Below, in pieces: positions 24,278 through 47,338 of a stretch of DNA of 53,352 nt. The notes beneath the pieces are model-generated. The model saw nothing but the letters and a program-made list of their open reading frames with translations, ran no database searches and was not told the origin of the DNA. Source of the DNA: Pseudomonadota bacterium (lineage in GTDB: Bacteria; Pseudomonadota; Gammaproteobacteria; Steroidobacterales; Steroidobacteraceae); assembly GCA_025357635.1 (NCBI GenBank), contig JANXOV010000063.1:1-53352 (forward strand), in the 5' to 3' direction. The translations under genes and the position numbers were made by a program. Positions within the stretch are counted from its first letter, which is position 1; each line of letters opens with the position of its first letter.

Positions 24278-25645
24278 CTACTTCTCGTCGTTCAGGTAGC
24301 GATCGATTTCCCGCTGATAGTGCCGAACGCGTGTTTCCTGCTCGCTCCACAGCGGGCCTCGGAAGCCGCGTGACTTGATGCCCTGCTGCACGACGGGGAG
24401 CAGATCCGAGTCCTGATCCAGCACCTCGCCCAATTCGGGCTTTTGGCCCAGCGGCACATGCTTGATGTTGGGCCGCGTCTGACCCGTGACATCGATGCCC
24501 GCCGGCAGACCCATCCACGCCGGCACGGTGTAATCCTTGTCATCGACATGGCGATACATAATCATCGTGTCATAGGTGAACTTCTCCGGGTCGGTGGCGT
24601 GGGGCACGAAGCGCATGATGAATACGCCTTCCGGATGCATGCCCATCTGCACGTTCGGAAACAGCCCGGTGGCCCAGCTGTCGGTGAGTTGTCCGTTGGT
24701 GAACTTTTCGTAGTGCTTCAGGCCCAGCCGCTGCGCGCGCGCGCGCTTGCTTTGCTGAACGGCTTCGCGCACGCCCTGCGCATTGCCTTTGTAGCCGTCC
24801 GGATCCATGCCCGCGTCCTGCATCATGAAGCGCAGGCCGGCATCGACCGAATCCTGATCGCCGACGCGGTGCGACTTCATGCACAGCGGCACAATCATGC
24901 GGCTGGCGCCGTTCGGGTATAGATCGTACTGGCTGAAGTCTTCCATGACCGTCTGCGTCTGCGGATGCACGAAAGCCAGGTGATAGGTTTCGTAAAACGC
25001 GTCAACGCCGGTTTTCCAATTCGCGGCCCATTCGCTGCGCACGTGATGCACCACGTTCATCTTGTCGATTTCGTAGTTCTCGATGTAGCCGGCCGGCAGA
25101 CCGATGTACTCGCGCAAGGGTCGCGCCTTGCCGTCCATGTTGATGAAAATGATACCGCCGAGCACCTCGCAGCGGATTTCCGTCAAGCCGGGACGGTGAT
25201 GAATGAGTTTCGGGTTGAAAGTGTTTTCATCGGTGATGGTCTTCAGCTTGCCGTCGCAGGCGAATTGCCAGCCGTGAAAGGTGCAGGTGAACTGCTCGAC
25301 ACTGCCGCGCTCGTTCAGCGCGATGCGATTGCCGCGATGCGGGCAGACGTTATAGAAGGCCTTGACCTTGCCGTCGGCCTGGCGCGCCAACAAGAAAGAT
25401 TCGGGGCCGAACTCGAACGTCGTGTAGTCGCCGTCTTGGGCAATATCCGACACCACGCCGGCCAGCAGCCAGACCCGCGGCCACAGGTGCCGCCATTCCT
25501 TTTCCATGAATTCGCTCGAGTAGTAGCGCGAAGGGTGGGGGATATCCAAGCCGTCATCGATCGCCGGTTGCTTGCGCTCCAGCGAATGCGCCGGGGCGTT
25601 GGGATTGACCTCGAGCGGCCAGCCGGCCTTGATGTTGATCGCCAT
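24278..25645 (-). CDS. Rieske non-heme iron oxygenase, alpha subunit
   Basis: 455 residues. The Rieske 2Fe-2S site is complete (CPHRG, Cys101/His103; CTFHGW, Cys121/His124). The mononuclear iron site is seen in DAFYETYHLAFVH (Asp215, His222, His227). The long C-terminal domain (to 455) is of the alpha-only, aromatic-ring-hydroxylating type that can hydroxylate, demethylate or cleave. No beta subunit, ferredoxin or reductase gene is in the window, so electron partners are elsewhere. A good GGAGGAAG site precedes the ATG. Operator copy A (25,707-25,724) lies 62 bases upstream in the region shared with the TonB receptor gene. First gene of the cluster on the left side. Confidence 0.92.
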   Translation of the reverse strand: MAINIKAGWPLEVNPNAPAHSLERKQPAIDDGLDIPHPSRYYSSEFMEKEWRHLWPRVWLLAGVVSDIAQDGDYTTFEFGPESFLLARQADGKVKAFYNVCPHRGNRIALNERGSVEQFTCTFHGWQFACDGKLKTITDENTFNPKLIHHRPGLTEIRCEVLGGIIFINMDGKARPLREYIGLPAGYIENYEIDKMNVVHHVRSEWAANWKTGVDAFYETYHLAFVHPQTQTVMEDFSQYDLYPNGASRMIVPLCMKSHRVGDQDSVDAGLRFMMQDAGMDPDGYKGNAQGVREAVQQSKRARAQRLGLKHYEKFTNGQLTDSWATGLFPNVQMGMHPEGVFIMRFVPHATDPEKFTYDTMIMYRHVDDKDYTVPAWMGLPAGIDVTGQTRPNIKHVPLGQKPELGEVLDQDSDLLPVVQQGIKSRGFRGPLWSEQETRVRHYQREIDRYLNDEK

Positions 25646-26041: not shown

Positions 26042-28537
26042 ATGCTCCGGTTAAAGTCTCTTGCTTCTTTTTTGATGGTGCCCGCGCTGCTGGCGAGTAC
26101 CACCGTCTTCGCGCAGACAGAAAGCGGGGCCCACAAAGGAAACGACTTGTCCCTTGAAGAGATCGTCGTAACCGGCACAAAGCGTAACGAGGCGCAGCAG
26201 GACCTGTCGGTGGCGGTCACGGCAGTAACCGCCAAGAAGCTGGAAAGTACCTTCCAGAACGACGTCAGCGCGCTCGCTCAATTGGCGCCGAACGTAACCC
26301 TGACGCCGCAAGTGGGCTTCAATGCCGTCGGTGGCGGCATACGAGGCACCGGGTTCATCTCGATCCTGGTGACCAAGGACCCTTCAGTGGGCATCAGCGT
26401 TGACGAATTCGCCTTCAACCACGTGCAGTCGCAGTTCGTTGAAATGTTCGACATCGAGCAGGTGGAAATATACCGCGGCCCGCAGGGCACGCTGTTCGGC
26501 AAGAATACGACTGGCGGTGCGATAGCGTTCACCACCAAGAAGCCTGTTCTGGGTCAGCTTTTCGGCAATGTCGAGGCCAATTACGGCCAATTCAGCTCCA
26601 ATAGTTCCAATTTCTACAAAGTTAAGTTCGCGTTGAATGTGCCCATTAGCGACACGCTGGCCATGCGCTTTGCCGTCATCAAGGATAAGAGCGATGGCTT
26701 TTACACCAATGACAAGCCGCCGGGCGGTCAGTTCACCAGCTTCGGTTGTCTGCCGGGTCCCGGCTACCAGTCTTGTATTGACTCCGTGATTTCAAAGTAT
26801 CCGCTGGTAGGCAACGGTGCAAAAATTGGCGGGACGGATGTGCTTGCGGCAAAGGCGAAGTTTCGCTGGCAGCCCACCGATTCCTACGTCGCGGATCTGA
26901 CCTTCGAGATTGTCAGGGATCGCGGCGACACTCAGGTGGCCGCGAATGAAACACCCAATGGCGAAGGATACATCTGGCCGCTGATCGGCTTTCCGGGCAT
27001 CGGCAGTGGCGATCCGTTCCACACCGGTCAGTCGTACACCGCCAACGCGGCTGTCGATCTCCCCGCAGGCCATCAGGTCGATGGCAAAGGCGTTTACCTG
27101 ACCCAGGCCTTCAAGGTGGGCCAATTCGAACTGAAGTCCATCACCGGCTATCGCAGGCAGGACGAGATTCTCGCGAGCACCTATACCGGCGAGGCCTACA
27201 CCTCGCTCTACGATGCGAGCCGCAATTCCAACCGCAAGCAGTTCCAGCAGGAATTGCGCCTGACGAGCCAGTTTGATGGTCCTTTCAAATTCACCACGGG
27301 AGCCGTGTATTTCAAAGACGACGTGAATTTCCAGGTGTTTGGAAGCCTTGGCTTCTTCCTGCCGCTGGCGGGCCCGGCGGGGGAGTTCTATCGTGATCGT
27401 TTCGAGATTCAGAACACCACACAGGACCGCAAGAACTGGGCGGTCTACGCCGACGGTTCTTACAACCTCACTGACAAGGCAAAACTCACGCTTGGAATCC
27501 GGCACACGGAAGACAAGAAGGACTTCCATCGCCTCAGTCTGGGCACTACAGCGAACCCTGTGAGCAATTTCATCGATATCACGCAGTATCGTGGCCCGTT
27601 CACCAACCCGCTGCCGGAATCGGCGTTCGGCAACAACATCAGGAACAGCAAAACGTTCAATGCCGATACCTATCGTGCGGTGTTTGACTATCACTGGGCC
27701 CCGCACCTGATGACCTATGTCAGTTACGCCACGGGCTTCGTTTCAGGCGGGTTCTCCGAAACCTGCGGCTCTGTGACATCCTGCGCGCCGTATAAGAGCG
27801 AGGAGAACACCAACGTGGAGTTTGGCGTCAAGTCCGATATGCTGGATGAGAAGCTGCGTTTGAATCTGGCGATATTCCAGACGAAGTACAAGAACTTGCA
27901 GCGTGACACCGTGGTCACCATCAAGGACGCCGCAGGCAACACGTTCCAGGAAACGCAATCGGTGAACGAGGGCAAGAGCACGGCCAAAGGGGTCGAGTTG
28001 GAAGCCAGCTATATACCCATGGCCAAACTGCGCTTCGATGCTTTCGTCGGCTTTCTTGATCACAAGTACGACTCGTACAATCCCAGTGCAGATCCCGGAC
28101 CGCTTGGGCTGACCGGAGCGGCGCGTCCTTTCGACTTCTCCGCGCTCGCTGTGACCTTCTCGCCCAGGTGGACCGCCGGCGCCACGGCCACCTTCATACA
28201 GAATCTGCAGAGCGCGGCCTCGCTGACCTATAGCCTCAACATGCACTATATGAGCGAGTTCGAGACCAATCCTTTCCCGGCCAACGCCCAGGGAGCTGAT
28301 TCTGCGGGCAATCCGATCGTGATACCCAAGGCCAATACGCAGGGCGAGGCGCGCACCCTGCTCAATGCGAACATCACGTGGAAGAGTTCGTCGGACAAGC
28401 TCGAGCTGACGCTCTACGGCAAAAACCTGACGGATCAAGTCTACCGAGTGGCCGCCAATCCGGTTGCGACGCTGTGGAACTTCTCCCGGCATGGTCCGCC
28501 GCGCGAACTGGGTGTGCAGGTGGGCTTGAAGTTCTGA
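26042..28537 (+). CDS. TonB-dependent outer-membrane receptor
   Basis: 831 residues of the proteobacterial type, unlike the acidobacterial receptor at 3.6-7.3 kb. Signal peptide about 1-24 (ending VFAQ); TonB box-like LEEIVVTGTKR (about 39-50); plug domain with LFGKNTTGGAI; a 22-strand barrel region to a C-terminal Phe (VQVGLKF). It takes up a scarce or bulky ligand across the outer membrane with TonB energy. In catabolic clusters of sphingomonads and related groups, such receptors import hydrophobic substrates rather than iron, and its place beside oxygenases argues for that. A terminator follows directly, so it is probably transcribed mainly alone from the copy-B promoter. Confidence 0.94.
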   Translation: MLRLKSLASFLMVPALLASTTVFAQTESGAHKGNDLSLEEIVVTGTKRNEAQQDLSVAVTAVTAKKLESTFQNDVSALAQLAPNVTLTPQVGFNAVGGGIRGTGFISILVTKDPSVGISVDEFAFNHVQSQFVEMFDIEQVEIYRGPQGTLFGKNTTGGAIAFTTKKPVLGQLFGNVEANYGQFSSNSSNFYKVKFALNVPISDTLAMRFAVIKDKSDGFYTNDKPPGGQFTSFGCLPGPGYQSCIDSVISKYPLVGNGAKIGGTDVLAAKAKFRWQPTDSYVADLTFEIVRDRGDTQVAANETPNGEGYIWPLIGFPGIGSGDPFHTGQSYTANAAVDLPAGHQVDGKGVYLTQAFKVGQFELKSITGYRRQDEILASTYTGEAYTSLYDASRNSNRKQFQQELRLTSQFDGPFKFTTGAVYFKDDVNFQVFGSLGFFLPLAGPAGEFYRDRFEIQNTTQDRKNWAVYADGSYNLTDKAKLTLGIRHTEDKKDFHRLSLGTTANPVSNFIDITQYRGPFTNPLPESAFGNNIRNSKTFNADTYRAVFDYHWAPHLMTYVSYATGFVSGGFSETCGSVTSCAPYKSEENTNVEFGVKSDMLDEKLRLNLAIFQTKYKNLQRDTVVTIKDAAGNTFQETQSVNEGKSTAKGVELEASYIPMAKLRFDAFVGFLDHKYDSYNPSADPGPLGLTGAARPFDFSALAVTFSPRWTAGATATFIQNLQSAASLTYSLNMHYMSEFETNPFPANAQGADSAGNPIVIPKANTQGEARTLLNANITWKSSSDKLELTLYGKNLTDQVYRVAANPVATLWNFSRHGPPRELGVQVGLKF

Positions 28538-28711: not shown

Positions 28712-29137
28712 ATGCCATCGATGCTTGTTCATATCAAGGTCCGCGCAGGCCAAGCGCCGCGGTTTGAATTCATGCTGAAGGATCTGTCTGCGCACACCCA
28801 CGCTCACGAACCAGGGTGTTTGCGGTATGAATACTGGCGCGGCGCCGCGGAGAATCAGTATTACGCCTTTCTTGCATTCGTTGACAGTCGTGCATTCTAC
28901 GAACATCAGGCCAGCGAGTATCACGAGCAGTATCTGGAGGAACTGCTGAATATGTTTGAGACATTTTCCATCGAGTACGTGGATGCAATCGAAGCCGGCG
29001 GTTCCGGTCTGCCCGCGACCATGGATTCGCCGTTGGGGCCGGATCCCGAAGGCCGCCTGGGCGTGCAGAAACAGCGCTATCCAATTGCAGTTCAGGCGTG
29101 GTGGGAGCGTGTTCGAACCGATGCGCATGAAACTTAA
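28712..29137 (+). CDS. ABM-domain protein (antibiotic biosynthesis monooxygenase-like)
   Basis: 141 residues. The first about 95 form a dimeric alpha/beta-barrel ABM domain (MLVHIKVRAGQAPRFEFMLK, then HTHAHEPGCLRYEYW, FLAFVDSRAFYEHQ). Such proteins act as cofactor-free monooxygenases or quinone-handling and isomerase-like proteins. The last about 45 residues, Pro/Gly-rich with QKQRYPIAVQAWWERV, are an extension not usual for the family. GGGAGGG stands before the ATG. The next SDR gene starts inside its last codons, so translation is coupled. A second ABM gene lies at 35.5 kb. Confidence 0.8.
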   Translation: MPSMLVHIKVRAGQAPRFEFMLKDLSAHTHAHEPGCLRYEYWRGAAENQYYAFLAFVDSRAFYEHQASEYHEQYLEELLNMFETFSIEYVDAIEAGGSGLPATMDSPLGPDPEGRLGVQKQRYPIAVQAWWERVRTDAHET

Positions 29138-29897
29138 AGGGCAAGTGGCCATCGTAACCGGCGGCACTTCTGGAATCGGCGCGGCGATCGCGAGACGCTT
29201 TGCAGAGGAAGGGGCTGCGATTGGTATCATCACGCTATGCAGTCGGGAAGAAATGGATGCCATGCTGACGCAACTGCGCAATCTGGGTGTTCGAGCAGCT
29301 GGTCGTCATGCGGACATTTCACAATCCGGGGATGTCAAAGACGCTGTTGAGTCGCTCGCAGAGGAACTTGGCCCCGCTGCGATCCTCATCAACAACGCCG
29401 CGATATGGCAGCCCAATCCTGTTCCTCAGAGTTCCATTGAACTTTTCGACCGCCACATCGACATCAACCTCAAGGGCACGTTCTACGTGACTCAGTATGC
29501 ACTGCCCGCCATGCTGGCTGCAGGCAAGGGCCATATCGTCAATATCGGCTCCGTCAGCGGCATTGCAGGTCGGGCTGGTGACAGCGCGTACTCGGCATCC
29601 AAGGCTGGCGTTGCGATGCTTACCCGAACGCTCGCCAGCGAGTTGGGTTCCAAAGGAATTCGAATCAACTGCATTTGTCCCGGCGCAGTGGCAACGCCAT
29701 TGACAGCACACCTGCGAACGCCCGAAGGCGAGCGGGCAATCGATGCGCTCATGGAGAAGCATTCGAGCCCGAACCATAGATTTTTTATGCAGCCGGAAGA
29801 TATCGCCGGGGTCGCGCTGTTTCTCGTCAGCGAGGCATCTCTGGCGATACATGGTGCGGTGATTGCGGTAGACGAAGGTCTTACCGCAACCATGTAG
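29121..29897 (+). CDS. Short-chain dehydrogenase/reductase (SDR)
   Basis: 258 residues from ATG 29,121 (or 29,127, two codons later). Classical SDR: cofactor loop TGGTSGIG, NNAA, catalytic Ser in GSVSG and YSASK (Tyr-xxx-Lys). The start overlaps the ABM gene end by 17 bases, so both are made together. It probably oxidises an alcohol or reduces a ketone of the pathway with NAD(P); the cofactor choice is not clear. An unusual insertion at ITLCSREEMDAM after the second strand replaces the common Asp or Arg cofactor-selecting residue. Confidence 0.9.
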   Translation: MRMKLKGQVAIVTGGTSGIGAAIARRFAEEGAAIGIITLCSREEMDAMLTQLRNLGVRAAGRHADISQSGDVKDAVESLAEELGPAAILINNAAIWQPNPVPQSSIELFDRHIDINLKGTFYVTQYALPAMLAAGKGHIVNIGSVSGIAGRAGDSAYSASKAGVAMLTRTLASELGSKGIRINCICPGAVATPLTAHLRTPEGERAIDALMEKHSSPNHRFFMQPEDIAGVALFLVSEASLAIHGAVIAVDEGLTATM

Positions 29898-29988
29898 TGG
29901 AAATACGATCGAGAGGTGGGGCGATACGATTCTGATGCGGTGATGTAGCGAACGTTACGACGGTGCGCATTGGTTGTCAGGAGGAGCA

Positions 29989-30741
29989 ATGAGACTACAG
30001 AACAAGATCAGCATCATCACCGGCGGCGCAAGCGGCATCGGTGAGGCTACCGCCAGACGCTTCATTGCCGAGGGCGGCAAGGTGCTTATCGCTGATCGAA
30101 ACGTTGCCGCGGCTGAAAGATTGGCCGGGGAACTCGGCGCGAATGCGGCCGCCATCGAGTGCGATGTGCGAAAAGAGGCCAGCGCGATCGCGGTCGCCGA
30201 GCACGCTCTGCGGCTCTGGGGTCAGATTGACGTGCTGGTCAACAACGCCGGTTCCGAGCTGAATCGCTCCTACAACGAGACCACCTCGGACGAATGGGAC
30301 ATGGTGCTGGAGACGGATCTGAAAGGACCGTGGCTGCTGTGCAAGCATGTGGTGCCGCACATGGTAACGCGTGGGTCCGGCAGTGTCGTCAACGTGTCAT
30401 CGCTCAATGGACTGGTCGGTTTCCCTCTGTCCACAGCCTATGGCAGCGCCAAGGGTGGCCTCGTGGTCTTCACGCGCGACATGGCCATTGAACTGGCGAA
30501 GTCCGGCGTGCGCTTCAACTGCGTCTGTCCGGGCGTCATTCAGACGCCGATGATGGAGCGATGGACCAAGCTCATGCCCGATCAGCAACAGGCCCAGGCG
30601 ATGCTGCGCGGGGTGATGCCGATCGGCCGCATGGGCCGGCCCGAGGAAGTCGCCGGCGCGATTCTGTTCTTTGCGTCGGATGACTCAACGCTATGCCAGG
30701 GCGCGGTGTTGAGCGTCGATGGCGGGTTCACCGCCCAGTAA
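29989..30741 (+). CDS. Short-chain dehydrogenase/reductase (SDR)
   Basis: 250 residues; AGGAGGAG precedes ATG 29,989 by 4 bases, deciding the start. Motifs: TGGASGIG, Asp in IADRN after the second strand (NAD+ preference), NNAG, Ser in VSSLNG, YGSAKGG (Tyr-xxx-Lys), PG and VDGG at the C-terminus. A general oxidoreductase; with NAD+ it would act as a dehydrogenase in catabolism. It is the last gene of the rightward block that starts at the ABM protein and is convergent with the M24 gene (22 bases between stops). Confidence 0.92.
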   Translation: MRLQNKISIITGGASGIGEATARRFIAEGGKVLIADRNVAAAERLAGELGANAAAIECDVRKEASAIAVAEHALRLWGQIDVLVNNAGSELNRSYNETTSDEWDMVLETDLKGPWLLCKHVVPHMVTRGSGSVVNVSSLNGLVGFPLSTAYGSAKGGLVVFTRDMAIELAKSGVRFNCVCPGVIQTPMMERWTKLMPDQQQAQAMLRGVMPIGRMGRPEEVAGAILFFASDDSTLCQGAVLSVDGGFTAQ

Positions 30742-30763: not shown

Positions 30764-32005
30764 TCACTCGAGGACAAACAATTCGTGCGGCAATGTATGC
30801 AGGCACTGCGCGCCGCCGCGCGTGATCAGGTAGCTGCTCTCCAAATGGTACGGCGCCACGGAGTGACCGAAGTATAGGTATTCAAAATTGACGACCGTAT
30901 TTTCTTCCAGCACGAAGTCCTTGAGCCGCCCGAAGGCAGGGTACTTGCTCGGCAGTTCGATGATGTCGAGGCCAATGCTGTGAAAGAACACCAACGTCTT
31001 CTTGGGCGTCGGTACGTCCATGGCATAGGCGATCCTGCTGACTTTCGACCAAGCCTCATGGGTGGTGATGCCGGCGCGCAGATGCTGCACAGCTTCCTGC
31101 TGCGCAGCCGAGATCGTCGCGCAGATGCGCGCGTAGTCGCTGGAAGGCTTGCCGATGTGCACCGTGCGCGAGACATCAAAGGCGTAGTTGGAGTAGCTGC
31201 CCCAGGATTCGAAGATGATGGTCTGTCCGGCATGCACGCGCCAATCGTTGTCGGCGAACATCAGGTCTGGAAAATACACGCCGCCGTATTCGGCGCCGAA
31301 TTGCAGCGCCTTCTGCGCCGACATCACGGTGGCGCCGGCCGCCTGCACGTGATTGCGAAAGCGGGTCGCAACCTCCTTCCACTGCACGCCTGGGCGGATG
31401 ACGGGCAGGATGTCCAGCAGGGCGGCTTCGTTGATCGCCGCGCCTTTGCGAAGAAACTCGATTTCCTGCGCTGTCTTGACCTTGCGGATATCCAGCCAGG
31501 CGTCATGGCCGTCCACCGTCTGAAGTCCTGCCAACCCGGCACTTACGTGCTGGGCGAGCCGCAGATCGTCGAAGCCGATCCGTGCGTTTGCAAGTCCTGA
31601 TTCGGCAATGGCATCGCGGGTGCCCGCGACGATGTCAGGCGCGAGTGAGCCCTGTACTTTTTGTTGATACAGCTTTTCGATGTCCGCCTGCAGCGGGTCG
31701 AGTCGCACCGGTTCGGGCTCGTGCGCCACATACGAAGTATTGAGAAATTCGGTGGTGCGAACCTGCGGGATCCAGGTCGGCGTCTCCAGGAGCCCAGCGA
31801 TCGCGAACTCCGGCACCACCAGCACCGCCGGTATGGCTGGGTCACGGGGAATGATCACTGCGGCCTGGTTTTCCTGAAAACCCCATTCCGAGATCCGGGT
31901 CCAGAAGCCGGAGGCGTAGTAGACATTGCGGGCAGACGAGGCGACCAGCGCGTCGAGCCCCAACTCGTCCATTTTCTGCCGCGCTCGATCCAGGTTTAAT
32001 AACAT
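30764..32005 (-). CDS. M24-fold (creatinase/aminopeptidase P-like) enzyme with altered metal ligand
   Basis: 413 residues from ATG 32,005; the open frame continues upstream but without family likeness. An N-terminal creatinase-like domain (about 1-165) precedes the pita-bread catalytic domain. Comparing with aminopeptidase P ligands (Asp, Asp, His, Glu, Glu): the first Asp is Glu (FESWGSYSNYAFD, with the normal 11-residue step to the second Asp), His is in FFHSIGLD, Glu in VNFEYLYFG, and the last Glu in YHLESSYLI. So a metal site may remain but is not standard. Such members include non-peptidases (creatinase, ectoine hydrolase), and amide or C-N hydrolysis is plausible. It is paired head-to-head with another M24 gene across operator copy C. 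Confidence 0.85.
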   Translation of the reverse strand: MLLNLDRARQKMDELGLDALVASSARNVYYASGFWTRISEWGFQENQAAVIIPRDPAIPAVLVVPEFAIAGLLETPTWIPQVRTTEFLNTSYVAHEPEPVRLDPLQADIEKLYQQKVQGSLAPDIVAGTRDAIAESGLANARIGFDDLRLAQHVSAGLAGLQTVDGHDAWLDIRKVKTAQEIEFLRKGAAINEAALLDILPVIRPGVQWKEVATRFRNHVQAAGATVMSAQKALQFGAEYGGVYFPDLMFADNDWRVHAGQTIIFESWGSYSNYAFDVSRTVHIGKPSSDYARICATISAAQQEAVQHLRAGITTHEAWSKVSRIAYAMDVPTPKKTLVFFHSIGLDIIELPSKYPAFGRLKDFVLEENTVVNFEYLYFGHSVAPYHLESSYLITRGGAQCLHTLPHELFVLE

Positions 32006-32092
32006 AAGGAGTGTCCCAGAGTGTCTATCCGTGGTCGGTGCGGGTTGCACCACGCTTTACGCGATCACATATACTAGCGTATCGTATAAAAA

Positions 32093-32110
32093 AAACAGTA
32101 CCGACTGTTT
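32093..32110. promoter_or_regulatory. Operator copy C of the shared palindrome
   Basis: AAACAGTA-CC-GACTGTTT: 15 of 16 positions match. The outer bases extend the inverted repeat (AAAAACAGT-N4-ACTGTTTTT, 32,091-32,112). It lies in the 149-base divergent region between the two M24 genes, 45 bases before ATG 32,155 and 88 bases from ATG 32,005. A possible -10, TATACT (32,070-32,075), lies just left. Confidence 0.65.
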
Positions 32111-32154
32111 TTATTGAATTGGCGTTGACTGATAGTCGTAAGAGGGTGGGGGGT

Positions 32155-33429
32155 ATGGATCCACGACTGGGCCGGATGCGAGAGGGCATGGCGAAAGCCG
32201 GCCTCGAGGCCATTGTATTGACCAATCAGTACGACGTGCTGTATGCCACCGGTTACACCTCCTTGCTGGAGCGCTGGAACCTGCAGGAACCCGTCGCTGC
32301 CGCCATCGTGCCGCTTGATCCCAAGCTGCCGGTAATTCTCGCGATTCCCGAAGCCAACATCGCGCTGCTCTCGGTGATGAAGGAATCTGGCAAGCCAGAC
32401 CGCGCCGATGAAATCCGCGTGTTTGAACTGCTCACCTTTTGCGAAATGGCGCGTCGATCGGACCCCTGGGCCCGGCGCAGCGCAATCGCCGAGGCAGCGA
32501 TGCAGTTGTATGCCGACCGGGTGCGCGGTCGCTCGGAGGCTGACATTATCGCCAGTCTGTCTGTGACGCTGACTGAGCACGGCCTGCACAAGGCGGCCAT
32601 CGGCTTTGACGATCTGCGCGTCGGCTTCGCAGTGCGCAAGGATCCGCGATTGACCGGTATTGCTGTTGAGGATGCGCTCGATCTGATGATCCGTGCCCGC
32701 AGCGTCAAATCGCCCGAAGAGATCGCGGCGTTCCGCCGCATCGGACCCGTCGGCGATCGATGCGTGGAATTCGCTGCGTCACTCCTCAAACCGGGCATCA
32801 CCTGGACCGAGCTGCAGCGTCAGCTCGCAGCCTTCATGGTTTCCATCGATGTCATGCCGCTCGATGAGGGGGTGCTGCTCTTCGGTGGTGCGTTTGCCGG
32901 TGAGTTCATTCCGGAGCTTTTCCGGACGCGGTCCGACAGCGCGCTCGAGAAGGGCCAGATCGTGATCCTCGAAACGCTCGGCCAGATGGAAGGCTTCTGG
33001 ATCGACATCAACCGCACTGCTTACATTGGCAATCCGCCGGCGGAATACCTGCGGATGCACGACGCCATCCGCGATGCGTTTCTCAAGGCTGCCGACCACA
33101 TGAAGGCCGGCAACCATACCGGCGAATGCACGCGGATTGCCTACGAGCATGTCAAAGCCGCGGGAGTGCCGGCGCCGGAGAAACTGCTGACACTCGCGCA
33201 TGGCATCGGCCTCACGCCGGTCGAGATGCCTGTCGGCTTTCCGTCCTACGGCCTGCGGGGCGCGCAGGGTTTTGTGATCGAAGAGAACATGGTGATCAGC
33301 CTCGATTGCCTGTATTTCGGCGGCAAGTATGGCCCCTGCCATATGGAAAACGTCTACATCATAGAAAAAGCGGGCCCGGTTCCAACCTACCGTGCGCCGC
33401 TCGAAGTTCTTGGCCCACGCAACATTTGA
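32155..33429 (+). CDS. M24-fold (creatinase/aminopeptidase P-like) enzyme, second copy
   Basis: 424 residues from ATG 32,155 (a GTG at 32,011 would add 48 residues that run across operator copy C, so I reject it). Same layout as the divergent copy. Metal positions: Glu instead of the first Asp (LETLGQMEGFWID), second Asp kept, His in LAHGIGL, Asp in VISLDCLYFGG where most have Glu, Glu in CHMENVYII. Two ligand changes make peptidase activity unlikely. It starts the rightward operon with E1-alpha, E1-beta, ABM and PQQ dehydrogenase (gaps of 11, 1, 35 and 11 bases). Confidence 0.85.
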   Translation: MDPRLGRMREGMAKAGLEAIVLTNQYDVLYATGYTSLLERWNLQEPVAAAIVPLDPKLPVILAIPEANIALLSVMKESGKPDRADEIRVFELLTFCEMARRSDPWARRSAIAEAAMQLYADRVRGRSEADIIASLSVTLTEHGLHKAAIGFDDLRVGFAVRKDPRLTGIAVEDALDLMIRARSVKSPEEIAAFRRIGPVGDRCVEFAASLLKPGITWTELQRQLAAFMVSIDVMPLDEGVLLFGGAFAGEFIPELFRTRSDSALEKGQIVILETLGQMEGFWIDINRTAYIGNPPAEYLRMHDAIRDAFLKAADHMKAGNHTGECTRIAYEHVKAAGVPAPEKLLTLAHGIGLTPVEMPVGFPSYGLRGAQGFVIEENMVISLDCLYFGGKYGPCHMENVYIIEKAGPVPTYRAPLEVLGPRNI

Positions 33430-33440
33430 AGGAGCCGGCG

Positions 33441-34409
33441 ATGACTTACGACCCAGTGATGCTGCTCGATGCGTACCGACGCATGCGCGCCATCCGCGAA
33501 TTTGAGGAGCGCATGCGGCGCGAAGTGCAGATGGGCACGGTGCCCGGTTTCGTTCATCTGTACTGCGGGCAGGAAGCGATCGGCGTTGGCGCCTGCATGA
33601 ACCTGCGCGATACCGACTACATCGGCAGCACCCATCGCGGCCATGGCCATTGCATCGCCAAAGGTTGCGACATCGGCGAGATGCTGCTCGAGATCTATTG
33701 CAAGCAGGGCGGCCTGTGCAACGGCAAGGGTGGATCGATGCACATCGCGGATTTGCGCAAAGGCATGCTCGGTGCAAATGCCATCGTCGGCGGCGCACCG
33801 CCCATTGCCGTGGGCGCAGCGCTCACTCAAAAGACGCTCGGTACAGACGGTGTGGCCATGGCGTTCATCGGCGACGGCGCATCCAACCAGGGAACGGTGG
33901 CTGAGTCGCTCACCATGGCGGCAGTGCTCAAGCTGCCGATGATCTTCATGTACGAGAACAACGGCTACGCTGAGTTTACCGGGACGTCTTATCACCTCGG
34001 CGGCGCCGACATCGCCAAGCGCGCGGCTGCTTTCGGCATGCCGGCGGAAAAGGTCGATGGCACGGATTTCTTTGCCGTTTACGATGCCGTCGGTCGTGCC
34101 GTGGCGAGGGCGCGCAAGGGCGAGGGTCCCAGTGCCGTCGAGGCGTTCGCCTATCGCTGGTACGGGCACTTCGAGGGCGATATGCAAAAGTATCGCGACA
34201 GCAAAGAAGTTGAGCGATTGCGCGCATCGTCCGATCCGATGATCAAGTTCAGTACCGCTCTGACCCAGAACCATGGCATCGACGCAGAGGAGCTGCGGGA
34301 GATTGACGAGGAAATCAGCGAGCTCATCGAGGATAAGGTCAACGCGGCCAAGGCTGCGCCCAAGCCTACGAGCGAAGCGCTTTATTCAGATGTTTACGGG
34401 AGCTACTGA
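33441..34409 (+). CDS. 2-oxoacid (pyruvate/acetoin-type) dehydrogenase E1, alpha subunit
   Basis: 322 residues from ATG 33,441 with GGAG in front. Thiamine diphosphate motif GDGASNQ (Gly144-Asp145-Gly146) to ENNGYA (Asn173-Asn174), and the family's STHRGHGH and NGKGGSMHIAD segments. It is closest in layout to AcoA (acetoin dehydrogenase) and PdhA. With E1-beta it decarboxylates a 2-oxoacid or cleaves an acetoin-like diketone or ketol, passing the acyl group to the E2 lipoyl group. The E2 gene is 7 kb away on the other strand (41,757-42,995), also behind a copy of the same operator. No E3 gene is in the window. Confidence 0.93.
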   Translation: MTYDPVMLLDAYRRMRAIREFEERMRREVQMGTVPGFVHLYCGQEAIGVGACMNLRDTDYIGSTHRGHGHCIAKGCDIGEMLLEIYCKQGGLCNGKGGSMHIADLRKGMLGANAIVGGAPPIAVGAALTQKTLGTDGVAMAFIGDGASNQGTVAESLTMAAVLKLPMIFMYENNGYAEFTGTSYHLGGADIAKRAAAFGMPAEKVDGTDFFAVYDAVGRAVARARKGEGPSAVEAFAYRWYGHFEGDMQKYRDSKEVERLRASSDPMIKFSTALTQNHGIDAEELREIDEEISELIEDKVNAAKAAPKPTSEALYSDVYGSY

Positions 34410-34410
34410 C

Positions 34411-35439
34411 ATGGCAATCAAGACTTACCGCGAGGCAATCACCGAAGCGCTGCAGGGCGAGATGCGGCGCGACTCTCGCGTCATTATTCTCGGCGAAGAT
34501 GTCGTGGGTGGACTCGGCGGCACCGCGGGCGAAGTGGAGGCGGCCGGCGGTACGTTCGGCGTGACCGCGGGGTTTGCGGCGGAGTTTGGCCGGCGCCGGG
34601 TCATCGACACGCCCATCACCGAATCGGCGATCGTCGGCGCCGCCAATGGCGCGGCGTTGACCGGGCTGCGGCCCGTGGCAGAAGTCATGTTCATGGACTT
34701 TATCGGTGTTTGTCTCGACCAGATCCTGAATCAACAGGCCAAATTCCGCTACATGTTCGGCGGCAAATGTTCGGTGCCGGTGGTGATCCGCACCTTGATG
34801 GGCGCCGGCTTCGGCGCCGGCCCGCAGCATTCACAGAGCCTGCATGCGCTGCTGACGGCGATTCCCGGTTTGAAAGTGGTTCTTCCGTCCTCGCCCGCCG
34901 ACGCCAAGGGACTGTTGACTACCGCGATCCGCGACGATGATCCGGTGATCTTCTGTGAGCACAAGGTCCTTTATGGAGAATCGGGCGAGGTGCCCGACGG
35001 TGAGTATCTTGTGCCGTTTGGCGAAGCCAACATCACGCGCCGCGGCAATCATGTGACCATAGTCGCCTTCTCGCGCATGGTGCTGCTTGCCAACAAGGTG
35101 GCCGACAAGCTCGCCAAGGAAGGCATATCCGTTGAAGTCATCGATCCGCGCACCACCTCCCCGCTCGATCGGGACAGCATCCTGGAATCAGTGGAGAAGA
35201 CAGGTCGTCTCGTAGTCGTGGATGAAGGCGACCCCTACTGCGGCATGGCCAGTGAGATCGCGAGCCTTGCCGCATGCGAAGCGCTGGATGCCCTGAAGGC
35301 GCCGGTGCAGAAGGTCACGCCACCGCATACACCCGTGCCGGCGACGCCGCACCTAGAGCAGGAATGGCTGCCCTCGCCGGATAAGATCGAACGCGCGGTG
35401 CGCACGGTGCTTGGTGCAAAACTGGCTCGCACCGGCTGA
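34411..35439 (+). CDS. 2-oxoacid (pyruvate/acetoin-type) dehydrogenase E1, beta subunit
   Basis: 342 residues, one base after the alpha subunit stop; GGGAG upstream. Transketolase-like pyrimidine domain with the active-site Glu in PITESAIVGAANG, then FMDFIGVCLDQILNQQAKFRYM, and a C-terminal transketolase domain (VEVIDPRTTSPLD, VVVDEGDPYCG). The alpha2-beta2 partner of the preceding gene. Substrate unknown: side-chain 2-oxoacid, pyruvate, or a ketol made in the pathway. The gene ends 35 bases before the ABM gene. Confidence 0.94.
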   Translation: MAIKTYREAITEALQGEMRRDSRVIILGEDVVGGLGGTAGEVEAAGGTFGVTAGFAAEFGRRRVIDTPITESAIVGAANGAALTGLRPVAEVMFMDFIGVCLDQILNQQAKFRYMFGGKCSVPVVIRTLMGAGFGAGPQHSQSLHALLTAIPGLKVVLPSSPADAKGLLTTAIRDDDPVIFCEHKVLYGESGEVPDGEYLVPFGEANITRRGNHVTIVAFSRMVLLANKVADKLAKEGISVEVIDPRTTSPLDRDSILESVEKTGRLVVVDEGDPYCGMASEIASLAACEALDALKAPVQKVTPPHTPVPATPHLEQEWLPSPDKIERAVRTVLGAKLARTG

Positions 35440-35788: not shown

Positions 35789-37756
35789 ATGCGCACCACT
35801 GCGGGATTGGCTTGTGCGGCGATGTTTGTCAGCGCCTTGGTTCATGCGGCCGCTGCAGCGCCGGCGACGGACGGGCTAGGCTGGGCTTATTATGGCGGAG
35901 ACTCCGGTGGCACTCGTTTCTCCGCTGCAAAACAGATCAACCGCGACAATGTCGGTGATTTGGAAGTTGCCTGGAGGTACTCCAGCGGCGAGGTAAAACG
36001 GCGCGGCCCTGACCTTATCGCCAACAGCTCGACTCAGGTGACGCCAATCCTGGTCGACGGCTCGCTCTTGTTCTGCACTCCGTTCAATCGCGTGATCGCG
36101 CTGGATGCCGCAACCGGCCGTGAGAAGTGGGTGTTTGACCCCAAGGTCAAGCTCGATCAAAAGCTTCCTTACCAGTACACCTGCCGCGGAGTATCTGCAT
36201 GGCGCGACCCGCAGGCGCCGGCGGGTTCCGCCTGCGCAGTGCGCGTTTTCATGGGAACAAACGATTCACGGCTGATTGCGCTCGATGCGCACACGGGTCG
36301 GCCGTGCACGGACTTTGGCCTCGAAGGGCAGGTGGCGGTGGTGCGGGATTGGCCGGACCGCTACCCCGGTGAGTCCAAACTGATCTCCGCTCCGGTGGTC
36401 GTAGCCGGAGTCGTGGCGGTCAGTTCCGCGATCATGGACAACATCCGCGCCGATTCGCCGCCGGGTACGATCTTCGCCTTCGATGCGCACACCGGCGCAC
36501 GGCGCTGGAAGTTCGAACCGGTTCCACGCGATCCGGCCGACCCGGCGTACGCAACCTGGCTGAACGACAGTGCCCGGCGCACGGGTGCGGCGAATGTCTG
36601 GTCGACGATGGTGGCCGATGAAGCCCGCGGCATCATCTATGCTCCGATCGGTTCGGCCTCGCCGGATTTTTACGGCGGCGAGCGCAAAGGCGACAATCTG
36701 TACTCCAGTTCACTGGTCGCCCTTGACGCTGGCAGCGGCAAGCCGGTATGGCATTTCCAAAGCATTCACCATGACATCTGGGATTACGATGTCGCCTCGC
36801 CGCCGCTGCTGACCGAGATCCGGCGCGGTGGGCAGATGGTGCCGGCGGTAATCCAGAACACCAAGCAGGGATTCGTGTTCGTGTTTGATCGCACCAACGG
36901 CGCGCCGTTGTTCCCCATTGAGGAGCGGCCTGTGCCCCAGGGTGCATTGCCGGGCGAATGGCTCTCGCCGACGCAGCCGTTCCCGGTCAAGCCTGCGCCG
37001 CTGGTCCCGTTGTCGGCAAAGCCTGAGGACGCATGGGGTTTTACGTTTTGGGACCGCAATGCATGCCGCAAACTGATGACGGCGCTGCGATCTGAAGGTA
37101 TTTACACGCCGCCGTCGACTGCGCCCGGCACCGTTCTTGTGCCTGGTTCCGCCGGCGGCGCCAATTGGGGCGGCGCCGCGTTTGATCCTGCGCGGCAGTT
37201 GATGCTTGTCAATGTAAACCGCGTGCCGCAAGTGGTGAAGATGGTGCCGCGCAAGGAGATCCCCGGCGTCGAGGGGATCGAGCTCAAGGACGGTAAAGAC
37301 ACCTCCGCGGCAACCGGCACGCCCTACGGTGTGCGTCGCGAATGGCTGTTATCGCCTTGGGGGGCGCCGTGCACTGCGCCGCCCTGGGGCGAGCTGATTG
37401 CCGTCAACATGGTGGATGGTGAGGTGAAGTGGCGTGTGCCGCTGGGGTCGATCGAGAAGCGGCTGCCCATCCGATTCGAATGGAACCTCGGTACGCCCAA
37501 CCTAGGCGGTCCGGTCATCACCGCCGGCGGCCTGGTATTCATTGCCGCCACCATGGATGGCTTCTTGCGCGCGTTTGACGTCGACACCGGCAAAATGTTG
37601 TGGCGCGAGGAGTTGCCGGCCGGAACGCAGACCACACCCATGACCTACGAAGCCGGCGGTCGCCAGTTCGTGGTGCTGGCCACGGGGCATCATCTTTGGT
37701 TCAACTCACCGGCGGGTGATGAGATCGTTGCCTTCGCGCTGCCCAAAAGCCGTTGA
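35789..37756 (+). CDS. PQQ-dependent dehydrogenase, glucose-dehydrogenase type, periplasmic
   Basis: 655 residues. Signal peptide about 1-23, so periplasmic and without the N-terminal membrane anchor of the E. coli Gcd enzyme. An eight-bladed PQQ propeller follows, with blade motifs such as VIALDAATGREKWVFDP and FLRAFDVDTGKMLWREELPAG, and the active-site landmark HHDIWDYDVASPP of the Gcd group; WYG-like start GWAYYGGDSGGTRFS. It oxidises an alcohol or sugar-like group and passes electrons to ubiquinone or a cytochrome. PQQ synthesis genes are not in the window. Last gene of the rightward operon; convergent with the P450 (28 bases between stops). Confidence 0.9.
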   Translation: MRTTAGLACAAMFVSALVHAAAAAPATDGLGWAYYGGDSGGTRFSAAKQINRDNVGDLEVAWRYSSGEVKRRGPDLIANSSTQVTPILVDGSLLFCTPFNRVIALDAATGREKWVFDPKVKLDQKLPYQYTCRGVSAWRDPQAPAGSACAVRVFMGTNDSRLIALDAHTGRPCTDFGLEGQVAVVRDWPDRYPGESKLISAPVVVAGVVAVSSAIMDNIRADSPPGTIFAFDAHTGARRWKFEPVPRDPADPAYATWLNDSARRTGAANVWSTMVADEARGIIYAPIGSASPDFYGGERKGDNLYSSSLVALDAGSGKPVWHFQSIHHDIWDYDVASPPLLTEIRRGGQMVPAVIQNTKQGFVFVFDRTNGAPLFPIEERPVPQGALPGEWLSPTQPFPVKPAPLVPLSAKPEDAWGFTFWDRNACRKLMTALRSEGIYTPPSTAPGTVLVPGSAGGANWGGAAFDPARQLMLVNVNRVPQVVKMVPRKEIPGVEGIELKDGKDTSAATGTPYGVRREWLLSPWGAPCTAPPWGELIAVNMVDGEVKWRVPLGSIEKRLPIRFEWNLGTPNLGGPVITAGGLVFIAATMDGFLRAFDVDTGKMLWREELPAGTQTTPMTYEAGGRQFVVLATGHHLWFNSPAGDEIVAFALPKSR

Positions 37757-39057: not shown

Positions 39058-40956
39058 CTATTTGCCGTCCACAGAAAACACCAGCAGCACGTTGCCAGGC
39101 ATCCGGCCGCCGAACAGATATCCCGAGTTCACCACCACACGGCCATCGGCGATGATGGCGCCGACGCTTTCGATCGAACCGCCACGTCCCTTCTCGCCGG
39201 AGACGGTGTCGAAGTCGCGGGCCGTATTGAACGACCAGAGCATCCGGCCGTCGGTTTCCCGGTAGGCGCGAAGCCAGCCGTCATAGGAAGGCTGGAATAC
39301 CACGCCGGGCATCGAGGTCGGTGGGGGTGAAAAGCCGCGATCGCAGGCAGGCTTCTGCTCGGCTTTGCAAGCATCGGGCGCTGCGGCAAACCATTTGATC
39401 TTGCCGTTGGCGGGTTCCAATGCAAACAGCCCCGGCTTGGGTTCGCCCTTCTCGGTGCCCAGAAACGTGGTGTCCGCGTTGGGTGCGAAGAGTGTGCGCG
39501 CGCTCGCCGACATGCCCCAGTGCACACCTCCGGCGAAGCCGCCGCGCCCGTACTTCACCTTCCATAGCAGCCGACCGTCGTCCGGACTGAGCGCGAAGAC
39601 ATCGGCGGACTTCTGTCCGATGAGCAGCACATCGCCGCCGGAGGGCAGCCTGTGCAGAATCGGCGGTGCACCAATATCCAGGTCGGGGCCGTTCTGCACC
39701 GGGCAGTTCGGACCGCCGCCGATAAAGCAGGCCATGTTCCAGGCGTCGCCTGCGATGGATTGGTGCCACCACAGCATGCGTCCGGTATCCAGATCGTAGG
39801 CGATCACCGAATCGCTTTGCGCAGCAGCCGGCGAGGTATAGGCCTCGCCGGTGCCGACATACAGCCTGCGTCGTTTGACATCGATCGTCGGAGAATTCCA
39901 CACCGGTGCACCAGCCGGATGACGCCTGGCAGCCCCGGCCTTGTTGACTTCGCCAGTGGCCTGTGGCGCCTGCGGAATGGAATACGAGCGCCAGGCAAGG
40001 GCACCGGTTGCAGCGTTCAATGCGGCGACCCCGCCGCGGAACGTGCAGCATTCATACGCAGGATCCGCGGCCGCAGCCCACTCGTTGGAAGACATCGGAA
40101 CGTAGAGTCGCCCCTCGTAGTAACGTGGCGAGCCGGTGATGGTCAGCCGCGGGTGCTCATCGACGCGTGTCTTCCACAGCAAGGCGCCTGATTGCGCGTC
40201 CAGTGCGTAGGCGTTGCCCTTGAAATCGCCGAACCATAGTTTCGGCCGGGCTTCGCGATCGCCGCTGCGCCAGGGTTCCAGCACCGGGCTCGAGCGCACT
40301 TCGGCGTCCGCTGCGAAGGCGAATCGAATGCAGCCGGTGTCGAAATCGAGCGCGTAGACGGTGCCGTCCTGGCTGCCGACATACAAAGCGCCGCCCCCCA
40401 AGGTTGGCTGCGAACGCGCACGCGTGGCGCCGGGGAACGCAAACGCCCATTTCAAATCAAGCCGCGGCACATCGGCTGCACTCAGGCCGGCTGATTTCGC
40501 AGAGACGTGGCGTGTGCCTTCCAATGTCATGGCCCAGCCGGCGAGCGGTGGTGGGCGGTTGAAGTCGAATGTCGAATGAGCGGCGTCGCAGTTGGCTCGC
40601 TGTGCGGAATGTTCAGAAGGAAGGGCTGCGCCCGCAAGATACTCGGCCAGTGTGCGACGTTCGGTCGGCGTCAACGCCGCGCCTTGGGCTTGCATCACGC
40701 CGCTTTCGAGCGCGGTGAGAATGGTACGCGGGCCCAGCATCTGAAAGGCCACCGAGTGCGGTGCGCGCGGAACGGTGCCCTCATGACAGGCGGCGCAGAC
40801 GCTCTTGTAAATCTCGGCCGGCTCCCGCACTGCCGAGGCCTCTGCGCGCGCGGCTCCGGGCTCACTCAGGCTCAGACACAAAAGCACCAACCCGGCCGAC
40901 AGTTCTTTGTTGGTATTCACGCGCCTCGCTCTCTTGCTTGACAAAATCATCTTCAT
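39058..40956 (-). CDS. PQQ alcohol dehydrogenase with N-terminal cytochrome c, polyvinyl-alcohol-dehydrogenase-like
   Basis: 632 residues. Signal peptide up to about 40 (GAARA), then a c-type heme domain with CAACH (about 54-58), then a PQQ propeller with repeated AxDxxTGxxxW blades. In the propeller the vicinal-Cys pair ECCTF is present, the disulfide ring typical of PQQ alcohol dehydrogenases. Sequence landmarks (GGVHWGMSASA, NMACFIGGGPNCP, GTGEAYTSP) fit the PVA dehydrogenase (cytochrome) family, which oxidise secondary alcohols in polymers and other bulky compounds in the periplasm. Met at 40,956 and 40,950 both possible. Four genes of this operon: E2, SDR, this one, P450, with gaps of -4, 45 and 16 bases. 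Confidence 0.9.
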   Translation of the reverse strand: MKMILSSKRARRVNTNKELSAGLVLLCLSLSEPGAARAEASAVREPAEIYKSVCAACHEGTVPRAPHSVAFQMLGPRTILTALESGVMQAQGAALTPTERRTLAEYLAGAALPSEHSAQRANCDAAHSTFDFNRPPPLAGWAMTLEGTRHVSAKSAGLSAADVPRLDLKWAFAFPGATRARSQPTLGGGALYVGSQDGTVYALDFDTGCIRFAFAADAEVRSSPVLEPWRSGDREARPKLWFGDFKGNAYALDAQSGALLWKTRVDEHPRLTITGSPRYYEGRLYVPMSSNEWAAAADPAYECCTFRGGVAALNAATGALAWRSYSIPQAPQATGEVNKAGAARRHPAGAPVWNSPTIDVKRRRLYVGTGEAYTSPAAAQSDSVIAYDLDTGRMLWWHQSIAGDAWNMACFIGGGPNCPVQNGPDLDIGAPPILHRLPSGGDVLLIGQKSADVFALSPDDGRLLWKVKYGRGGFAGGVHWGMSASARTLFAPNADTTFLGTEKGEPKPGLFALEPANGKIKWFAAAPDACKAEQKPACDRGFSPPPTSMPGVVFQPSYDGWLRAYRETDGRMLWSFNTARDFDTVSGEKGRGGSIESVGAIIADGRVVVNSGYLFGGRMPGNVLLVFSVDGK

Positions 40957-41001: not shown

Positions 41002-41760
41002 TCAGGCGGCGGTGACGCCTCCGTCAACGGGGATGCAGGCGCCATTGACATAGCTCGCGGCGCTGGAACACAGCCAGGTGGCCACGTCCGCCGCTTCACT
41101 CGGCGCGCCCAGCCTTCCGATCGGCGCGCTGGCCGCAAGCGCTTCGCGCATGGCGGCCGTGGTCGATTGCTGGGTCATGCTCGTGTCCATGTAGCCAGGG
41201 CATATTGCGTTGACGCGAATGCCCTGGCGCGCATATTCCAACGCGGCACACTTGGTGAGGCCCAGGACACCATGTTTCGCGGCGGAATAGGGCGCGAGTG
41301 TTGCAAAGCCCACCAGTCCTGAGATGGAAGCGTTGTTGACAATGGCGCCGCCTCCGGTGGCAAGCATGGCGGTGAGCTCCGCGCGCATGCAATGGAACAC
41401 GCCCGACAGCGTTACGGCGATAACCCGGTCCCAGATGGCAGGTTTCTGCTCGGCAAACGGCAGCAACTCACCCGGGTAACCGGCATTGTTGAAGGCGAAA
41501 TCCAGGCGCCCGAGCTCGGCCACCACGCCGCGCACGGCCTGCTCGCATGCTTGCGGATCGCCGACCTGTGTTTCGAAGTACTTCGCCGTTGCGCCCATTG
41601 CCTTCAACGCGGCGATCCGCTGCCCGGCGAGTTCGACATTGGTGTCGCAGATGGCGACTGCGGCGCCGCGTGCCGCAAAGCGCTGCACCGCGGCCCAACC
41701 CATGCCATCCGCTCCACCGGTGACCAGCGCGACCCGCCCGGCGAAATCAGCTTCGTTCAT
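41002..41760 (-). CDS. Short-chain dehydrogenase/reductase (SDR)
   Basis: 252 residues. Motifs: TGGADGMG, Asp in ICDTN (NAD+ preference), NNAG, Ser in NASISG, YSAAKHG (Tyr-xxx-Lys), PG and VDGG. Four-base overlap with the upstream E2 gene (ATGA), so they are made together. The closest functional guess is NAD+-dependent oxidation of a hydroxyl group of an intermediate, perhaps following the PQQ or oxygenase steps; not provable here. Confidence 0.92.
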   Translation of the reverse strand: MNEADFAGRVALVTGGADGMGWAAVQRFAARGAAVAICDTNVELAGQRIAALKAMGATAKYFETQVGDPQACEQAVRGVVAELGRLDFAFNNAGYPGELLPFAEQKPAIWDRVIAVTLSGVFHCMRAELTAMLATGGGAIVNNASISGLVGFATLAPYSAAKHGVLGLTKCAALEYARQGIRVNAICPGYMDTSMTQQSTTAAMREALAASAPIGRLGAPSEAADVATWLCSSAASYVNGACIPVDGGVTAA

Positions 41761-43087: not shown

Positions 43088-43235
43088 GTAGTTAGGGTTG
43101 CATGCGGGCACGTAATGCAGCCCGCTGGGCGGAAATTGACACGCAAAGGAATTACTTCTACGGTGATTCTGCGGACTCGGCGCGGGCTGCCGAGATCATC
43201 GCGCCCGTTGAACCGGGATGTAGATGGGAGAGAGC

Positions 43236-43805
43236 ATGTCGATGTCTGCATTGCCGTTGGAATCCCTCGAACGCCGCATCCGCCGTCTGGAAGACCGCGA
43301 GGAAATCCACGAACTCATCGCCCGCTACGGGCTGGTGATGGACGATCGCGACATGGCGAGCATGGAGGACCTGTTCACTGCCGACGTGGTGCTGCGCTCC
43401 ATGGACGGCGTCTTGAACGCCACGGGCCGCAGCGCCGTGGTCGATCAGTTTCGTGGCCGCTTCAAGGTGCTCGGGCCCAGCAATCATTTCTCACACGACA
43501 AGATCATCCGTTTCGACGAAGCGGATCCGGATCGCGCCACGGGCCTGGTGCTGTCGCATGCGGAGATGAACCGCAAAGGTCAGGCCATGCTCACGGCCAT
43601 CCGCTACCAGGATGCCTATCGGCGCGAGCTGGGGCGCTGGAAATTCAGCGAACGCGTACTGAAGTTTTTCTATTATGTGCCCGCGGCGCAATACCTGGAT
43701 GCGCTGGGGCCTGGCCTGGCGATGCGCAACCGCGCCTATGACTCCCCGATGCCCGCGGACTGGCCGGAGAATCTGCCCAGCTGGAAGCATTACTACGGGG
43801 TTTGA
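43236..43805 (+). CDS. SnoaL-like/NTF2-fold protein (SnoaL_4 group)
   Basis: 189 residues from ATG 43,236, favoured over ATG 43,224 because GGGAGAG is then at a normal distance. The N-terminus has the family signature (LEDREEIHELIARYGLVMDDRD, here given by its core EIHELIARYG and DDRD), followed by FTADVVLRS. SnoaL_4 members include dehydratases such as BaiE of bile acid metabolism, isomerases and ring-hydroxylating-dioxygenase beta-like proteins. A dehydratase or isomerase role on a pathway intermediate is plausible. A role as the missing beta subunit for a Rieske oxygenase is possible but the length and lack of pairing with an alpha gene speak against it. Confidence 0.8.
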   Translation: MSMSALPLESLERRIRRLEDREEIHELIARYGLVMDDRDMASMEDLFTADVVLRSMDGVLNATGRSAVVDQFRGRFKVLGPSNHFSHDKIIRFDEADPDRATGLVLSHAEMNRKGQAMLTAIRYQDAYRRELGRWKFSERVLKFFYYVPAAQYLDALGPGLAMRNRAYDSPMPADWPENLPSWKHYYGV

Positions 43806-47334: not shown

Positions 47335-47338
47335 GGTG

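Follow-up and report, generated by a model that had tools for sequence, protein, structure and literature searches.

A head-to-head gene pair, A and B, in the 53,352-nucleotide stretch of DNA analyzed here (the window) encodes two proteins of the M24B family that carry a complete but altered metal site. On balance, sequence comparisons lead us to favor the reading that A and B are paralogous metal-dependent enzymes of a non-peptidase M24B branch acting in a catabolic pathway. We base this reading on the completeness of the altered site, its fixation in the clade, the loss of the second conserved peptidase histidine, and the conserved neighborhood of B.

Table 1. Genes A and B, their neighbors, and the intervening palindrome (window coordinates)
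Feature	Position	Strand	Remarks
Rieske oxygenase alpha subunit	24278..25645	-	54-57% identical proteins in B loci L095, L114, L117, L120
TonB-dependent receptor	26042..28537	+	
ABM (antibiotic biosynthesis monooxygenase family) protein	28712..29137	+	
Short-chain dehydrogenase 1	29121..29897	+	Start inferred
Short-chain dehydrogenase 2	29974..30741	+	
M24 paralogue A	30764..32005	-	413 aa, ATG 32005; ORF tool start GTG 32053
Perfect palindrome AAACAGT-N4-ACTGTTT	32093..32110		A/B divergent intergenic region
M24 paralogue B	32155..33429	+	424 aa, ATG 32155; ORF tool start GTG 32011
E1 alpha, 2-oxoacid dehydrogenase type	33441..34409	+	PF00676; 11 bases after B
E1 beta	34411..35439	+	Transket_pyr, Transketolase_C; start inferred
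Quinoprotein dehydrogenase	35789..37756	+	Closest NCBIfam model TIGR03074 (glucose/quinate/shikimate family), below cut-off
Cytochrome P450	37785..39041	-	
Quinoprotein	39058..40956	-	N-terminal cytochrome c domain
Short-chain dehydrogenase	41002..41760	-	
E2 acyltransferase	41757..42995	-	Lipoyl and E3-binding domains
SnoaL-like protein	43224..43805	+	

Relatives of both proteins align from the ATG codons given in Table 1, so the longer GTG-start frames appear over-extended and the ATG codons are the likely starts. A and B share 32% sequence identity, and both resemble M24B peptidases such as prolidase and aminopeptidase P (PF00557 plus PF01321) in having the two-domain fold at full length. 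PF00557 was matched with 80.3 bits by A and 74.4 bits by B, and PF01321 with 33.8 and 25.2 bits, respectively; the Pfam gathering cut-offs (23 and 22) were exceeded in every case. The predicted structures have a mean pLDDT of 89.1 for A (from 35 aligned sequences) and 94.6 for B (from 49), and each consists of a pita-bread fold with an N-terminal creatinase domain. In the B model, the five metal-position residues sit on strands 269-278, 281-290, 344-350, 379-387, and 395-403. The 50 structural matches listed per model have Z scores of 24.6-33.2 over 329-362 residues. For B, they include the dipeptidase PepE (PDB: 4ege; Z 33.2, rmsd 3.0, 351 residues aligned), the ectoine hydrolase DoeA (PDB: 6twj; Z 32.4, rmsd 2.9, 350 aligned), creatinase (PDB: 1kp0; Z 30.7, rmsd 2.8, 352 aligned), and DddP (PDB: 4rzy; Z 26.0, rmsd 3.6, 354 aligned). 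The corresponding matches for A are 4ege (Z 32.4, rmsd 3.1, 352 aligned), 6twj (Z 32.3, rmsd 3.2, 347 aligned), creatinase 1chm (Z 30.1, rmsd 3.3, 352 aligned), and DddP 4b28 (Z 27.9, rmsd 3.8, 360 aligned). The top matches are nearly tied, so no function can be singled out from the fold. Public records label B-type proteins M24 family metallopeptidases.

Metal ligands were mapped from alignments to solved prolidases and dipeptidases (three listed for each of A and B, and five for the profile). The canonical ligands are numbered D97, D108, H171, E204, and E235, and the first and second conserved peptidase histidines H79 and H178, after E. coli methionine aminopeptidase. From the sequence alone, it had been proposed that both proteins have glutamate at the first aspartate ligand, 11 residues ahead of a retained aspartate, and that the rightward copy, B, also has aspartate in place of a glutamate; the alignments bear out both substitutions. 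The five positions are E266, D277, H342, E375, and E389 in A (E-D-H-E-E) and E273, D284, H349, D384, and E398 in B (E-D-H-D-E), compared with the canonical D-D-H-E-E. Thus the first ligand, aspartate in M24B peptidases, is glutamate in both proteins, and the fourth, glutamate in the peptidases, is aspartate (D384) in B, whereas the second aspartate, the histidine, and the last glutamate are common to all. No alternative aspartate lies within 10 residues of the new glutamate. M24B peptidases also have the second conserved histidine and an arginine before the last ligand; here these are replaced by I, V, L, or F and by a histidine two residues before the last ligand (I349 and H387 in A). Neither of these marks of an active M24 metallopeptidase, the D-D-H-E-E set and the second conserved histidine, is therefore present in A or B. 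Both are present in all four of the other M24 proteins of the same genome.

A survey of related genes was used to determine how constant these residues are. Matches to A at E ≤1e-25 were present in 21 of the 296 genomes searched in the same order; eight of these encode A- or B-type proteins and the other 13 only more distant relatives of D-D-H-D type (C type; one C row is incomplete). A search with B at the same threshold in a 398-genome sample of the phylum returned the window's own genome as the sole match, and among plasmid records there were six matches to B and nine to A, with five of the latter falling on the B-type genes already found with B. Contigs were then scanned with a profile built from 11 A and B proteins plus two patterns, one for the second aspartate and one for the last glutamate with a histidine two residues before it, and 78 loci were kept. 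The two substituted positions lie outside these patterns and so were not selected for, whereas the constancy of the histidine before the last ligand is partly a product of the selection. The loci contain 109 M24 proteins (99 different), which were grouped by similarity rather than by signature: 83 best match B and 26 best match A. E-D-H-D-E is present in 80 of 80 readable B-best rows (73 loci without duplicates), the three unreadable rows being L052 B, the first half of L122 B, and L125 B. Among the A-best rows, all 18 with 50% or greater identity to A have E-D-H-E-E (14 loci without duplicates), and the remaining eight, 25-33% identical to A, are all D-D-H (C type). The ligand changes of A and B are fixed in the clade and exceed what chance would give. 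In a tree, A forms one group (SH-aLRT 99); the tree was used only for this grouping, as it splits B in two pieces (L059/L060 apart), has long branches flagged, and includes one DoeA row from a wrong open reading frame.

Columns other than the ligands were checked in 79 B and 18 A rows, with the second half of the L122 protein (≤380 aa) excluded; because these rows were chosen by signature, their ligand letters are no second test and only the other columns count. In every row, the H178-equivalent column contains one of I, V, L, or F, never histidine, and a histidine stands two positions ahead of the last ligand. The substituted ligands and the loss of the H178 equivalent in all A and B rows support the doubt about peptidase activity raised by the sequence-only reading, and the metallopeptidase label is probably misleading for the B-type clade.

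DoeA-type proteins offer a precedent for the aspartate-to-glutamate change in the first column, and in them it accompanies loss of the site. The seven usable rows above the cut-off of the ectoine hydrolase model (DoeA/EutD, TIGR02993) read E, P, Y, M, and T at the metal columns; an eighth, L164, came from a wrong open reading frame and was dropped. DoeA/EutD therefore matches A and B in fold and, among the metal columns, only in the first glutamate: the remaining four read D, H, E or D, and E in A and B. At the H79-equivalent column, which is poorly aligned in the outgroups (histidine in one of the four own-genome rows), all A and B rows have D or E, whereas seven of eight DoeA rows have histidine. 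The column likewise points away from peptidase activity in A and B, although its alignment is unreliable. Forty further genes were picked from one DoeA family-search listing, a sample biased toward DoeA-like proteins (L205 is in the wrong frame and L208 is unaligned), and 34 of these have glutamate at the first column. In all 34, the second aspartate is replaced by P, A, G, N, or I and the last ligand by T, S, or G; the metal histidine is tyrosine in 33 and a gap in one, and glutamate occupies the fourth column in three. None of the 40 surveyed genes combines the first-column glutamate with the retained aspartate and histidine. One row, L211, reads N, A, H, R, E, and H at six columns and is, we presume from this motif, creatinase-like. 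In A and B, the glutamate comes with a full set of histidine and carboxylate ligands, so the site looks re-tuned rather than lost. The likeness to creatinase and ectoine hydrolase suggested by the sequence-only reading holds for the fold (creatinase Z 29.5-30.7), but the residue signature sets A and B apart from ectoine hydrolase.

B is followed by the E1 alpha, E1 beta, and quinoprotein genes in the window, and this linkage recurs elsewhere. Thirty B loci have flanks of 8 kb or more in both directions, and in 26 of these E1 alpha and E1 beta lie within 8 kb of B. Among the four exceptions, L063 has only E1 alpha within that distance, with E1 beta farther off; both E1 genes are missing from that range in Luminiphilus syltensis L077 and in L122 and L123, which are of Pseudonocardia type. 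Across all 69 named B loci, many of them on short contigs, E1 alpha lies within 8 kb in 46 and E1 beta in 43; in 30 of the 46, the B and E1 alpha matches are on the same strand and 18-100 bases apart. The commonest other neighbors in the 30 long-flank loci are genes for TonB receptors (26), quinoproteins (20), and cupins (20). The B-E1 neighborhood, usually accompanied by quinoproteins, a TonB receptor, and oxygenases, occurs in sphingomonads and gammaproteobacteria; B is present in records of Sphingobium sp. RAC03, Croceicoccus marinus, and Novosphingobium resinovorum, the first two being annotated examples of the B-E1 arrangement, and the sphingomonad loci have a stand-alone lipoyl protein beside E1. 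None of the three A loci with flanks of this length has E1 alpha and E1 beta together within 8 kb. The partly annotated C-type clusters L045 and L036 differ from the B neighborhood, from which we conclude that E1 linkage is no property of the wider family. The genome contains nine E1-type matches, so the E1 beside B is one of several.

The A/B intergenic region also contains a perfect palindrome, a second perfect copy of which is located at 50002. Partial palindromes (11-12 of 14 positions) were found at 25707 and 25886, between the Rieske oxygenase and TonB genes, at 43070, between the E2 and SnoaL genes, and at 7361, outside the cluster. The window has six sites in all, whereas 20 base shuffles averaged 0.7, and the core pattern occurs in two places (three matches) against 0.11 expected from dinucleotide-preserving shuffles. 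The consensus was derived from the site at 32093, which is therefore not counted as evidence. The site at 50002 lies inside an over-long open reading frame in which the Rieske domain begins at about residue 397; the true gene start may therefore lie downstream of this site. A site scoring at least 11 was found in nine of 10 related loci in a scan run without a control, and none in L059. These data support a putative operator common to the A/B and oxygenase regions, in agreement with the earlier suggestion that the two M24 genes are under the same operator as the oxygenases.

No description of the A/B branch or its neighborhood was found in the open-licence PubMed Central literature, and we rate A and B as an M24B subfamily, very probably not of peptidases, that has a metal-site signature of its own and is undescribed there. 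In the accessible text on the estrogen (edc) pathway of the sphingomonad Novosphingobium tardaugens (PMC7793797), a 2-oxo acid from ring cleavage is decarboxylated by an oxidoreductase, and the pathway resembles the B cluster in having a P450, a 2-oxo-acid decarboxylation step, and a TonB receptor gene. The edc oxidoreductase is of the indolepyruvate ferredoxin type, unlike the E1 of the window, and the pathway is an analogy for the E1 step only; the same portion of text mentions neither M24 nor peptidase. The riboflavin/lumichrome pathway shares a P450, a Rieske protein, and a thiamin-dependent decarboxylase with the B cluster, but we do not equate the two because the available part of that account (PMC12746152) has no mention of M24 or peptidase and LumK and LumL are small (20 and 23 kDa). 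Bile-salt degradation in Sphingobium Chol11 was set aside, as M24, peptidase, PQQ, and pyruvate dehydrogenase do not appear in the portion of PMC8540908 that is accessible. The corresponding part of a Halieaceae genomics study has "peptidase" once, in a CAZyme figure legend (PMC10100682), and those of PMC12613374, PMC7568399, and PMC5924519 contain nothing on the A/B residues.

In A and B, a dinuclear metal site would activate water or hold a carboxylate or keto substrate. We tentatively propose, as a possible route, that B cleaves an intermediate made by the oxygenases and quinoproteins to give a 2-oxo acid or alpha-ketol, which is then decarboxylated by the E1/E2 proteins. P450 and Rieske oxygenases together with quinoproteins would make the intermediate. 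Cleavage of one bond, adjacent to a carboxylate or keto group, would release or expose the 2-oxo acid (or alpha-ketol), and E1 alpha/beta, partnered by either E2 or a stand-alone lipoyl protein, would oxidatively decarboxylate the product; which bond B cleaves is a guess from gene order. A may be an accessory paralogue that handles a related intermediate or stereoisomer, rather than an obligate subunit of B. The fuller form of this proposal is speculative and rather doubtful: that B represents a new class of M24-fold enzyme, a hydrolase or lyase that depends on metal at an E-D-H-D-E site to break a C-C (or C-O) bond. In sphingomonads and several gammaproteobacteria, its 2-oxo acid product would pass to a dedicated complex of the pyruvate dehydrogenase type within a shared, undescribed degradation pathway, of which A would be a side branch.

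The chief rival, which we consider unlikely, is that A and B resemble creatinase and ectoine hydrolase in function, as metal-free or weakly metal-dependent C-N hydrolases of a nitrogen heterocycle in which the first-position glutamate is catalytic. The near-tied fold scores of B and the glutamate in the same column of DoeA-type proteins are consistent with this, but those proteins lack the second aspartate, the metal histidine, and the last glutamate and differ at the poorly aligned H79 column, TIGR02993 scores are 40.3 bits (A) and 33.0 bits (B) against a cut-off of 613, and no nitrogen-specific gene was noticed among the annotated neighbors. A lyase similar to DddP, in which a metal would assist the beta-elimination of an ether, thioether, or ammonium intermediate bearing a carboxylate, is very unlikely. 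DddP does show that a metal-dependent enzyme with this fold need not be a peptidase: in the part of PMC4108388 that is available, it is a dinuclear-iron lyase of a non-peptide, with metal residues conserved from M24. DddP structures match the models (Z 25.8-27.9), but A and B remain far below the cut-off of the DddP family model (NF043017; 18.7 and 33.0 bits against 600). That A and B are ordinary Xaa-Pro-type peptidases tolerating the D-to-E and E-to-D swaps is highly improbable, even though the solved sequences nearest to them belong to prolidases, dipeptidases, and aminopeptidases and the best fold match is a dipeptidase, because the second conserved histidine is lost in all A and B rows, the genome already has four canonical M24 proteins, and the gene context is one of oxidative catabolism.

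A heteromer of A and B was one of two arrangements envisaged in the sequence-only reading. M24-fold proteins dimerize, according to the accessible text of PMC4108388. B is present in 12 of the 13 named genomes with A, the exception (G699) having an A that adjoins E1 alpha, and in six of the 13 both genes are on one contig: two pairs stand head-to-head as in the window, two are in tandem, and two are separated by about 9-10 kb. The pairwise identities of A also correlate with those of B (r 0.77; 55 pairs from 11 genomes). Against this, B is found in many loci without A, and two genomes (G697 and G702) pair an A 70-72% identical to that of the window with a B only 36-38% identical, which weakens the case for a strict heteromer. 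With a full site in all readable rows of both proteins, neither A nor B resembles an inactive, non-catalytic subunit. That A and B must combine into a heteromer sharing a single active site is thus distinctly unlikely, and A reads as a pathway-dependent accessory rather than a fixed partner of B.

For the non-peptidase M24B branch that we favor, the conserved neighborhood of B marks a catabolic pathway. The A/B clade is a natural experiment in which the metal site has been re-tuned, not lost, beside the site loss of DoeA-type proteins.

Several features were noted in the window and at loci in other genomes that carry B, the rightward member of the window's head-to-head M24 pair. At sphingomonad B loci, including L127, a 79-aa stand-alone lipoyl protein is encoded beside E1 alpha/beta, in place of the window cluster's E2. 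For the protein adjoining the window thiolase, neither the HMG-CoA-synthase-like match nor the match of ChsH2-type OB kind reached its cut-off. A thiolase and a ChsH2-type OB protein are likewise found near B in L095. An ORF family related to the DUF3604 protein of L095 was found in six loci. The B gene of a Pseudonocardiaceae MAG (L122:9986-11241) is divided by an apparent frameshift, which may be an assembly error. Sites resembling the operator-like palindrome of the window are present in related loci, e.g., L049, L050, L055, L066, and L067.

Coordinates of features in the window and at B loci
Feature	Location	Remark
Stand-alone lipoyl protein, 79 aa	L127:19338-19577	Adjoins E1 alpha/beta
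DUF3604 protein (PF12228)	L095:13838-15712	
Thiolase and adjoining protein	window 46135-48760	Thiolase matches PRK06157 above cut-off
Operator-like palindrome AAACAGT-N4-ACTGTTT	window 32093, 50002, 25707, 25886, 43070, 7361	Common to these sites

A second kind of M24 pair flanks a TonB receptor in L045 (G060:C1:1922001-1942000) and L036 (G010:C13:20001-40000). This pair has D-D-H-D-E at the metal positions, lacks the second peptidase His, and is accompanied by a methyltransferase and ChrR-type cupins; in L045, ureidoglycolate-lyase-like and acetoacetate-decarboxylase-like genes lie nearby as well. When 296 genomes of the same order were searched with A, the other window paralogue (E up to 1e-25), the genus of this pair (g30) had two matches per genome in all eight matching genomes. 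L172-L204 and L207 form a large group resembling DoeA (ectoine hydrolase), in which the M24 metal columns hold Glu, next P/A/G/N/I, and in nearly all cases Tyr; one genome (G366) contains 14 matches to the DoeA model (TIGR02993).
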